A DNA stretch of 8,915 bases from an archaeon MnTg01 (GTDB lineage Archaea; Thermoproteota; Nitrososphaeria; Nitrososphaerales; Nitrosopumilaceae). Location: the NCBI GenBank assembly GCA_008974855.1, contig BFAR01000032.1, forward strand, positions 1-8,915. Direction: 5' to 3'. The notes below the pieces were generated by a model, which saw only the letters and a program-made list of their open reading frames with translations, was not told the DNA's origin and searched no databases. The stretch's first letter is position 1; each line of letters opens with the position of its first letter. Shown here one piece after another: positions 50-4,552 of this stretch. The position numbers were made by a program, and so were the translations under genes.

Positions 50-550
50 CTAGTAATCAAACTCAATTGCCATCAAAAAAGAATCTTCGCCATCACGATA
101 ATACGCTTTTAACCTCTGTCTAATAATAAATCCAAGTTTTTCATATAGTCGTACTCCTTCTGTATTACTACATCTAACTTCAAGATAAAATTCATCGCAT
201 TTTTTGATTTTAACTCCATTCATTGATTCTTCTACAATGGCTTTACCAATTCCTTTTTTGCGATGCTGTTCTATCACTGCAATGGATACCATATGTCCTT
301 TCTTTACAAATCCCAATTTTTTAAAATTTGAAAATCCATATTCTGTTTTACACATAATGTATCCAATGGCTCTACCATCAATTTCTGCTACAAGAAATGC
401 CTCTGGCAATTCAGATAATAGGCTCTCATAGAAATAATCAGAATAGTGTTCAGGGAGAGTTTTCATATTGATTTCCATTACTGGAATCAAATCTGAAGGA
501 TCACATCTTCTAATTACACAATTCCCTATTTGTCGAAGTATTACTTGCAT
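50..550 (-). CDS. Archaeal N-terminal protein acetyltransferase (Ard1/NatA, RimI-type GNAT)
   Basis: This is a single-domain GNAT enzyme of 166 residues that transfers acetyl from acetyl-CoA to the alpha-amino group of nascent or ribosomal proteins in the cytoplasm. The acetyl-CoA loop RKKGIG lies at residues 97-102, after the beta-strand GHMVSIAV (85-92). LPEHY (32-36), YGFSN (71-75), YLEVRCSN (122-129), LYEKLGF (135-141) and YYRDGEDSFLMA (150-161) closely resemble the Sulfolobus Ard1/NatA sequence as I remember it. By that alignment E34 matches its substrate-selecting Glu35, and H86 and E124 match its catalytic His88 and Glu127. I chose the ATG at 550; a TTG directly before it (553) would add one residue. 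A TATA-like box is centred 25 bases upstream, so the transcript is probably leaderless. The family is clear; exact N-terminal specificity is inferred. Often annotated rimI. Confidence 0.9.
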   Translation of the reverse strand: MQVILRQIGNCVIRRCDPSDLIPVMEINMKTLPEHYSDYFYESLLSELPEAFLVAEIDGRAIGYIMCKTEYGFSNFKKLGFVKKGHMVSIAVIEQHRKKGIGKAIVEESMNGVKIKKCDEFYLEVRCSNTEGVRLYEKLGFIIRQRLKAYYRDGEDSFLMAIEFDY

Positions 551-2865: not shown

Positions 2866-3474
2866 ATGGAATTTGTAAAAGAGTTTGCAACCTTTTTACA
2901 TCAAAATGAGGTAATAAAATTTGGCGATTTTACCCTTTCAAGTGGAAAAAACAGCTCATACTATGTTGATTTAAGGTTGGTTTCTAGTTTTCCTCATCAA
3001 TTCCGTAAGATGATAAAGAATCTCCAAGATTTAATTTCAGAAGAAATAGGATTTGATAATTTTGATACTCTAGCATCTGTTCCTACTGGAGGTCTAGTAA
3101 TTGCCTCTGCACTTGCAATTGAAACAGTGAAACCTCTAATTTACGTTAGAACTAAACCAAAAGAATATGGTACATCAAAATCAATTGAAGGAAAAACCCA
3201 TCAAGGAATGAAGGTGTTAATGATTGATGATGTAGCAACTACAGGAGGCTCAGTCGTAAATAGCATTAAGCTTCTAAAAGAAGCTGGAATAGTTGTTACA
3301 GATGCATATGTAATTATTGACAGATTAGAAGGTGCAGAAAAACTCTTGGAATCAGTGGGAGTAAAGATGCATCAACTTACCGATATTATAGAAATAACAA
3401 ATTCATTACACGAGAAAAATTTAGTTAGTGATGAGGTTTTAAAAAAAATTCAATCCCAAGTAGCTCAAAACTAA
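2866..3474 (+). CDS. pyrE: Orotate phosphoribosyltransferase
   Basis: The 202-residue cytoplasmic enzyme joins orotate and PRPP to give orotidine 5'-monophosphate, the fifth step of de novo pyrimidine synthesis. The PRPP-binding signature is VLMIDDVATTGGS at residues 117-129. The mobile catalytic loop with R95, K97 and K99 is in YVRTKPKEYGTSKSIEG (93-109). The N-terminal FGDFTLSSGKNSSYYVDLR (19-37) is the typical orotate-site region, and SVPTGG (71-76) follows. The frame stays open upstream to 2719, but that part lies antisense to the LarA-like gene and does not look like PyrE. The ATG at 2866 gives the usual family length and has an AT box 25 bases upstream. No other pyrimidine gene is adjacent, and pyrF is not in the window. 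Confidence 0.95.
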   Translation: MEFVKEFATFLHQNEVIKFGDFTLSSGKNSSYYVDLRLVSSFPHQFRKMIKNLQDLISEEIGFDNFDTLASVPTGGLVIASALAIETVKPLIYVRTKPKEYGTSKSIEGKTHQGMKVLMIDDVATTGGSVVNSIKLLKEAGIVVTDAYVIIDRLEGAEKLLESVGVKMHQLTDIIEITNSLHEKNLVSDEVLKKIQSQVAQN

Positions 3475-3486: not shown

Positions 3487-3489
3487 TTT

Positions 3490-3552
3490 GGCAGCTCAGT
3501 CAAATGCCTTCACATCATTTTTCAGATATAACTCTGATTCTTCATTGCGGCC
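3490..3552 (-). ncRNA. Box C/D guide sRNA candidate (two guides, 23S rRNA targets)
   Basis: Read on the minus strand, this 63-base segment has the full order of an archaeal C/D sRNA, which directs 2'-O-methylation of RNA by the L7Ae-Nop5-fibrillarin complex. Box C is ATGAAGA at 3545-3539 (one change from RTGATGA). A 13-base guide follows at 3538-3526. Box D' is CTGA at 3525-3522, then a 3-base spacer, box C' ATGATGT at 3518-3512, a 12-base guide at 3511-3500 and box D CTGA at 3499-3496. Flanks GGCCGC (3552-3547) and GCTGCC (3495-3490) form a terminal stem with 5 of 6 pairs. A TATA-like box lies about 27 bases upstream and a T8 run follows. From memory of conserved 23S rRNA, the D guide pairs with CAAAUGCCU and the D' guide with UAU(A/G)ACUCU, both in domain IV. 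Expression and targets are inferred. Confidence 0.72.
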
Positions 3553-3574
3553 ATATTACATAGGTAGTTACTAG

Positions 3575-3585
3575 TTTTAAAATTA
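3575..3585 (-). promoter_or_regulatory. Putative TATA box of the C/D sRNA
   Basis: The minus strand reads TAATTTTAAAA. Its centre at 3580 is about 27 bases upstream of 3552-3553, where the sRNA terminal stem begins. The match between this distance and the RNA boundary supports an independent transcription unit. Confidence 0.45.
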
Positions 3586-3617: not shown

Positions 3618-3623
3618 GATAAG

Positions 3624-3697
3624 TGGGCCCGAAGGGCTTCGATCCCTTGGCTCACCGGTTATGAGCCGGTTACTCTACCAAGCTGAGTTACGGGCCC
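3624..3697 (-). tRNA. tRNA with CAU anticodon (elongator Met or Ile2)
   Basis: The minus strand folds into a complete uninterrupted cloverleaf of 74 bases including discriminator A. The acceptor stem is GGGCCCG/CGGGCCC, the D stem ACTC/GAGT, the anticodon stem ACCGG/CCGGT around CTCATAA (anticodon CAT), and the T stem AAGGG/CCCTT. CCA is not encoded. The G1-C72 pair argues against the initiator, which in Archaea normally has A1-U72. A CAU anticodon may belong to elongator tRNA-Met or to tRNA-Ile2, whose C34 is modified to agmatidine; I cannot separate these by eye. Two unusual points: position 10 pairs as A-T rather than the common G-C, and the T-loop is ATCGAAG, with A instead of T at position 54. 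Both strands of every stem still pair, so I read it as functional. Confidence 0.9.
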
Positions 3698-4456: not shown

Positions 4457-4552
4457 GCTCCTGTGGTGTAGACCGGTCAAGCATACCGCCCTTTCAAGGC
4501 GGTGATCCCGGGTTCAAAATCAAAAACGATGAAAGTCCCGGCGGGAGCACCA
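4457..4552 (+). tRNA. tRNA-Glu (UUC) with a 17-base intron in the T-loop and encoded CCA
   Basis: The acceptor stem is GCTCCTG/CGGGAGC (one G-U pair), the D stem GTGT/GCAT, and the anticodon stem CCGCC/GGCGG around CTTTCAA, giving anticodon TTC for glutamate. The T stem is CCGGG/CCCGG, but 24 bases separate its two strands instead of 7. Removing 4519-4535 leaves the normal T-loop TTCAAAT, so the intron lies between positions 59 and 60. The gene also encodes the 3' end: discriminator A at 4549, then CCA at 4550-4552. The intron forms an exact bulge-helix-bulge (see the intron entry), so this is a spliced functional gene and not a broken one. The polyprenyl synthase gene begins 23 bases downstream on the same strand. 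Confidence 0.93.
4519..4535 (+). other. Non-canonical tRNA intron (position 59/60) with bulge-helix-bulge
   Basis: The precursor folds as follows: outer helix CCGGG/CCCGG (T stem), central 4-bp helix TTCA (4513-4516) with TGAA (4530-4533), 3-base bulge AAA (4517-4519), inner TC/GA helix (4520-4521 with 4528-4529) closing a 6-base loop, and 3-base bulge AGT (4534-4536). Cutting each bulge after its second base, as the archaeal splicing endonuclease does, releases exactly 17 bases and restores a 7-base T-loop. Confidence 0.88.

Follow-up and report, generated by a model that had tools for sequence, protein, structure and literature searches.

Archaeal double-guide C/D sRNAs share a layout in which box C, a guide, box D', a spacer, box C', a second guide and box D succeed one another within ~60 nt, with guides of 12–13 nt, two nearby targets in rRNA and boxes that form a k-turn. 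The guides of archaeal C/D sRNAs were described as fast-evolving, and in a survey of seven species zero methylation positions were common to all seven (PMC7994747); among six thermophiles one methylation position was common to all six (PMC4644070). The latter work also presents a coupled guide pair common to distant archaea, seen in four thermophile sRNAs directed to the 16S rRNA, and it names helices 68, 69 and 71 as hotspots of predicted 2'-O-methylation in archaea, with a high density of predicted methylations near A1912 among hyperthermophilic archaea (PMC4644070). In yeast, the snoRNA snR13 guides 2'-O-methylation of the 25S rRNA at positions 2280 and 2281 (PMC5389607).

Judged from its sequence, the locus described here very probably is the gene of an archaeal double-guide C/D sRNA, with guides to sites in domain IV of the 23S rRNA and a predicted role in 2'-O-methylation via L7Ae, Nop5 and fibrillarin. 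It was found in an archaeon of the family Nitrosopumilaceae, which belongs to the Nitrososphaeria, a class known for ammonia oxidisers. The predicted RNA belongs to a known type and would act in the normal way for it, and it agrees with the layout given above in box order, length, guide size, the proximity of its two rRNA targets and its k-turn boxes. Beyond routine are the retention of both guides in most of the sampled class genomes and in part of the rest of the phylum, and the compensated changes in the k-turn; moreover, two nucleotides at an intersubunit bridge are named as predicted methylation sites. The conservation of the two guides reaches further than that in the published archaeal examples compared. 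Like the thermophile case, the two guides form a coupled pair common to distant archaea, but they address the 23S rRNA and not the 16S rRNA and they occur in most sampled genomes of the class and in part of the rest of the phylum.

None of the papers listed in the literature searches was seen to describe this sRNA, and the string 'thaumarch' is absent from the main texts of PMC4644070 and PMC7994747. A survey from 2012 had zero annotated snoRNAs for this group (PMC3486863), for which the present sequences could supply an Rfam family. For Nitrosotalea devanaterra, a report whose references cite a snoscan server gives seven annotated small RNA genes in the genome (PMC4836417). The record of this species carries the sRNA (locus L213), and one of the seven genes may be the sRNA described here, so that a later annotation may hold it.

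Architecture of the RNA gene

The window, i.e., the whole stretch of DNA that was analysed, comprises 8,915 nt of a 69% complete assembly (1.07 Mb, 180 contigs). The conserved core of the gene occupies positions 3490..3553 on the minus strand with its 5' end at 3553, as delimited by blastn matches in the family and by R1, a covariance model built from 57 family copies and applied with a match threshold of E 0.01. Read on the minus strand, it starts with the 5' strand of a terminal stem, GGCCGC (3547..3552), a single A and box C, AUGAAGA (3539..3545), followed by the D' guide of 13 nt, AUCAGAGUUAUAU (3526..3538), box D', CUGA (3522..3525), and a spacer, AAA (3519..3521), the sequence and length of which vary among copies. 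Box C', AUGAUGU (3512..3518), the D guide of 12 nt, GAAGGCAUUUGA (3500..3511), box D, CUGA (3496..3499), and the 3' strand of the stem, GCUGCC (3490..3495), complete the gene. The four boxes were assigned from the sequence, boxes D', C' and D together with the alignment A1 of the family copies, and the two stem strands from their covarying pairs. Boxes D and D' correspond exactly to the consensus CUGA, boxes C and C' each deviate by one base from RUGAUGA, and five of the six stem positions are paired in the window copy. The box order C, D', C', D thus comes with guides within the range of 10–15 nt and a short D'-C' spacer. A first-pass annotation of this DNA had proposed a box C/D sRNA on the minus strand with all elements in the right order and spacing, including a 13-base and a 12-base guide, a 3-base spacer and a stem of 5 of 6 pairs, and the sequence has all of these where that annotation had put them, on the minus strand.

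The box motifs are short and the gap between the flanking genes is AT-rich, which might suggest that C/D-like motifs were assembled here by chance. To describe the architecture, a regular expression was composed post hoc, with the element already known, that leaves position 5 of box C free and permits guides of 10–15 nt and a spacer of 0–8 nt. It matches the window a single time, at 3496–3545, and none of 300 dinucleotide-preserving shuffles of the window (0/300). Moreover, 220 of 250 family genomes have a match to the element. A chance cluster is refuted by this conservation and, taken together with the shuffles, is extremely improbable; the first-pass annotation had called it unlikely from the number of agreeing parts in a 149-base gap.

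Folding of the free sRNA strand was not significant (z −0.76) and was for this reason not used as support. A weak fold of the free strand is usual for C/D RNAs, which fold on their proteins. A scan with the Rfam covariance models, a check that had been proposed for this segment, gave archaeal C/D families as best matches, all of them below their cut-offs. The best one, sR17 (RF01144), covers 3549–3494 on the minus strand with 29.4 bits (E 0.0011), and sR14, sR9 and sR1 are also among the best matches. sR17 has AUGAaGA as its consensus at box C, as seen here, but its guides differ and the match rests mainly on the boxes; membership in sR17 was rejected with the score lying below the gathering cut-off of 36 bits. 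For the window's sRNA zero Rfam families reach their cut-off, and in 20 more distant loci all C/D families that overlap the homologue also stay below theirs.

Concerning the protein partners, Nop is encoded in three of the four genomes of the genus, that of the window included. Fibrillarin is likewise present in three of four, as a near-whole domain in two of them (G001 and G002) and as a C-terminal piece of 39 positions only in the window's own genome. Fibrillarin and Nop5 are both present in this way, the own fibrillarin being represented by its C-terminal piece.

Conservation in the family and the compensated k-turn

With a blastn query of 81 bases, the sRNA was matched in all 22 genera represented among the 250 genomes of the Nitrosopumilaceae. 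Among the high-quality genomes of the family 128 of 131 have it, and three of 131 are without a blastn match. Many matches span little beyond positions 8–71 of the query, which correspond to 3553–3490 of the window, and the conserved block is therefore the sRNA and not its flanks. Alignment A1 comprises 57 family copies; one more was left out, as the contig ends inside the copy. Across these copies the 19 columns that pair with rRNA have a mean conservation of 99.8% with 17 of them invariant, the 21 box columns 96.7% with 13 invariant, and the 27 remaining columns 80.7% with two invariant. The most conserved part of the sRNA in these copies is hence the part that pairs with rRNA. Applied to the window's own genome, R1 matches 3488–3554 with 96.6 bits.

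In the canonical k-turn, a U-U pair is found at the position that involves base 5 of box C. This U-U pair and the adjacent pair were named as a test for a k-turn (PMC7994747). Copies of the family carry A or G at position 5 of box C. In each of the 48 distinct rows this base forms a standard pair with base 2 of box D (A-U in 39, G-U in four and G-C in five of them), which distinguishes these RNAs from archaeal C/D sRNAs generally with their usual U-U. The first-pass annotation had noted box C, AUGAAGA, as deviating; with its changed base paired to box D and covarying with it, this sequence is a compensated trait of the Nitrosopumilaceae. In a wider set of 61 sequences position 5 forms a standard pair in 29, and the other 32 include the canonical U-U (e.g., L100, L104 and L123). 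The adjoining pair is kept in 61 of 61 and is realised by four pair types. Over the seven stem and k-turn pairs, both partners have changed in 91 cells, where shuffles give 22.8 and slid versions no more than 20. The alignment used for this count (A2) had been adjusted to the structure and is biased towards it. With this leaning of A2 in mind, the covariation supports the pairing of the terminal stem and of the k-turn. The architecture, the conservation, the covariation and the guide targets described below agree on the proposed identity as a box C/D sRNA.

Within the terminal stem, the central mismatch (columns 6/67) is unpaired in 42 of the 48 distinct family rows. By eye it is mostly pyrimidine-pyrimidine, and both sides vary with the mismatch kept.

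Guide targets in the 23S rRNA and predicted mode of action

The window's own assembly, being 69% complete, has no 23S match, and the targets of the window's guides, for which the first-pass annotation had proposed none, were therefore read from ten other Nitrosopumilaceae genomes that contain both rRNAs. In 10/10 of them, nine nucleotides of the D' guide (3529–3537, UCAGAGUUA) form a Watson-Crick run with the 23S stretch UAACUCUGA in helix 69, and ten nucleotides of the D guide (3501–3510, AAGGCAUUUG) form one with CAAAUGCCUU in the helix-71 region. The D site starts 24 nt beyond the D' site in all ten; in G001, which is of the same genus, the sites are located at 2021–2029 and 2045–2054 of the 23S rRNA. 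A 16S target was rejected, with zero Watson-Crick runs of at least 8 in 10/10 genomes, and the only other 23S run of at least 8 in the ten genomes is one of 9 nt for the D' guide in G051. Upon shuffling each guide 20,000 times, 830 shuffles reach a run of 9 (D') and 258 a run of 10 (D), and none (0/20,000) reaches both run lengths within 100 nt. Under a looser score that allows G-U pairs and charges mismatches, the D site is outscored in some genomes, for example by one place in the 23S rRNA of G001 and one in the 16S rRNA of G004, and the case for the targets consequently rests on contiguous pairing and conservation.

Both guides stand beside a box D or D' and are complementary to rRNA with position N+5 inside the duplex. 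The D duplex spans N+2 to N+11 in Watson-Crick pairs, and by the N+5 rule its predicted site, which is well supported, is A1938 in E. coli numbers. The D' duplex is Watson-Crick from N+4 to N+12, and its predicted site by the same rule is A1912. This second assignment is weaker and less secure than A1938, since the bases near box D' form G-U pairs (N+1 and N+3) or a mismatch (N+2) and vary among copies, and since only one Watson-Crick pair would separate A1912 from the end of the duplex. In two of the 57 copies (L081 and L086) there is one base fewer before box D', which would shift the D' site by one nucleotide. The E. coli numbering was fixed by two landmarks, pseudouridine 1911 and m5U 1939, and the E. 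coli rRNA record used was taken as 6 nt short before the target region. Position 2281 of the yeast 25S rRNA presumably corresponds to E. coli A1938, and the predicted D site would then equal one of the snR13 sites. snR13 differs in being a eukaryotic snoRNA with a C'/D' guide and an extra base-pairing region.

The sRNA would assemble with L7Ae, Nop5 and fibrillarin, and the D guide would direct 2'-O-methylation of A1938 in the helix-71 region and the D' guide that of A1912 in helix 69. The paired binding may also aid the folding of the intersubunit-bridge region during assembly. Two targets that are only 24 nt apart, and a D' core of 9 nt that is nearly invariant even though its Watson-Crick pairing begins only at N+4, might point to a different emphasis: the RNA would be part of a real C/D RNP, with its main job that of an RNA chaperone whose guides clamp helix 69 and the helix-71 region while these fold, and the D' site would be methylated incidentally or not at all. 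RNA chaperone activities of C/D sRNAs were indeed named (PMC7994747). However, the D duplex includes N+5, which is the normal arrangement for methylation, and fibrillarin is present in the genus. This makes a predominant chaperone function unlikely, and the two roles are compatible. The preferred reading is that of a guide for methylation.

Distribution in the class and the phylum

Using R1, matches were obtained in 343 of 400 genomes of the Nitrososphaeria (72/82 genera; 209/220 high-quality genomes). For the Thermoproteota 168 of 300 genomes have a match (139/244 high-quality), where the draw of 300 includes Nitrososphaeria genomes and matches near E 0.001–0.01 are weak. R1 was built from sequences carrying these guides and therefore favours copies with them. 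A pattern scan of named genomes returned at least 119 stretches, mostly titled Thaumarchaeota or Nitrososphaeria; out of 12 such loci searched with R1, all nine archaeal ones match and all three bacterial ones are without a match at E up to 1.

Inspected were 28 loci from Nitrososphaeria outside the family and 32 from Thermoproteota outside the class. Both 8-nt cores, CAGAGTTA and AAGGCATT, occur with at most one mismatch each in 27/28 class loci and in 23/32 phylum loci, and the order of the two guides is the same. The D' core is absent in one class locus (L117) and in eight of the 32 phylum loci (L136, L138, L141, L142, L143, L145, L146 and L149), and L143 has, besides the missing D' core, two mismatches in the D core. 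In L139 the D' core has two changes and still pairs via G-U. The first-pass annotation had named boxes and guides that are not conserved, next to genes that are, as an argument against the proposed RNA; instead, most family and class genomes and part of those of the phylum retain the boxes and guide cores.

The box sequences, the spacer length and the stem sequence differ widely among the distant loci, as do the neighbours where these were seen. The homologues outside the Nitrososphaeria might therefore be convergent, i.e., unrelated C/D sRNAs with guides to the same conserved rRNA stretch, as suggested for many shared methylation sites (PMC4644070), and the preference of the model search for copies with these guides would add to such an impression. 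The same guide order and the presence of both cores in most of the distant loci, compared to 3/6000 shuffled versions of their sequences, speak against convergence, which appears rather doubtful. Common descent would go further: the RNA would be an ancestral double-guide sRNA of the Thermoproteota that had kept both guides since before the classes of this phylum split, with the U-U of the k-turn replaced by covarying pairs in the family and with A1938 still methylated in yeast. This composite reading is put forward tentatively, its chances being slightly less than even. If it were true, the two guides would be the most widely conserved C/D guide pair of archaea and an exception to the view of a fast turnover of archaeal guides.

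In L141 and L146 the D guide is kept and the D' guide is different. These D' guides form 11 (L141) and 8 (L146) Watson-Crick pairs with the 5' strand of helix 69 in the 23S rRNA of the family, which was used here as the rRNA, and look as if they had slid along their target.

Neighbours and transcription

The sRNA lies 15 nt past the stop codon of a convergent pyrE-like gene (2866..3474, plus strand; Pfam PF00156, E 2e-12) and 69 nt past a tRNA-Met(CAU) gene on its own strand (3623..3697, minus strand; ARAGORN, 60.6 bits in Rfam). This position might suggest a 3' element of pyrE or a signal for processing the precursor of tRNA-Met instead of an independent gene. Within the family, 37 of 57 copies have tRNA-Met on the same strand at most 400 nt upstream, and 45 of 57 have a convergent pyrE match (tblastn) within 700 nt. 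However, pyrE is 600–700 nt away from the sRNA in 23/57 copies and no tRNA-Met is present within 400 nt in 20/57, some of these loci stopping at a contig end. Among 48 loci outside the family, 21 of which have only ~300 nt per side, tRNA-Met was seen in none and pyrE in one, at a distance of 1119 nt. Boxes and guide cores are kept even where pyrE and tRNA-Met are not neighbours, and a loss of the sRNA upon a change of neighbours was not seen. A role as an element of either neighbour is accordingly very improbable.

A TATA-like element, TTTTAAAA (3575..3582, minus strand), which starts 30 nt upstream of the stem, is likely to serve as a promoter for the sRNA alone. For 49 of the 57 family copies, the best match to TTTTAAAA, with up to three mismatches allowed and a search range of 8–79 nt, starts 27–32 nt upstream of the stem. 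This is the normal distance for an archaeal promoter with a start at the stem. From the TATA-like element and the pattern of neighbours, it is likely that the family sRNA is transcribed from this promoter with a start near 3553. The TATA-like box had been noticed in the first-pass annotation, together with a T8 run just downstream. The latter is present in the window, where it follows AAA 3' of the stem, but only 12 of 57 family copies have T5 or longer within 20 nt downstream; the T run is thus not a conserved element, and a conserved terminator was rejected.

In six of 21 phylum loci a tRNA-Gly gene follows the homologue on the same strand 4–39 nt downstream, at 4–6 nt in L122, L127 and L131 and at 34–39 nt in L132, L133 and L140; the former three have stems of the GGGGC/GCCCC type. 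Transcripts shared by a tRNA and a C/D sRNA are known (PMC7994747), and a shared transcript with tRNA-Gly is plausible for these six loci. In L145 a second C/D sRNA (363–421, plus strand) follows directly downstream of the homologue as a tandem pair. It is this neighbouring RNA, and not the homologue, that matches Rfam sR11 above the cut-off (48.2 bits; cut-off 39).

The window also contains, at 4457–4548 on the plus strand, a tRNA-Glu(UUC)-like gene that was not called by ARAGORN. It has an insertion of ~17 nt in the T-loop, a candidate non-canonical tRNA intron. Of the tRNA-Glu(UUC) genes in 27 family loci found by pattern, 16 have the longer form, with 90–93 nt between fixed ends, and 11 the uninterrupted form of 74–75 nt.
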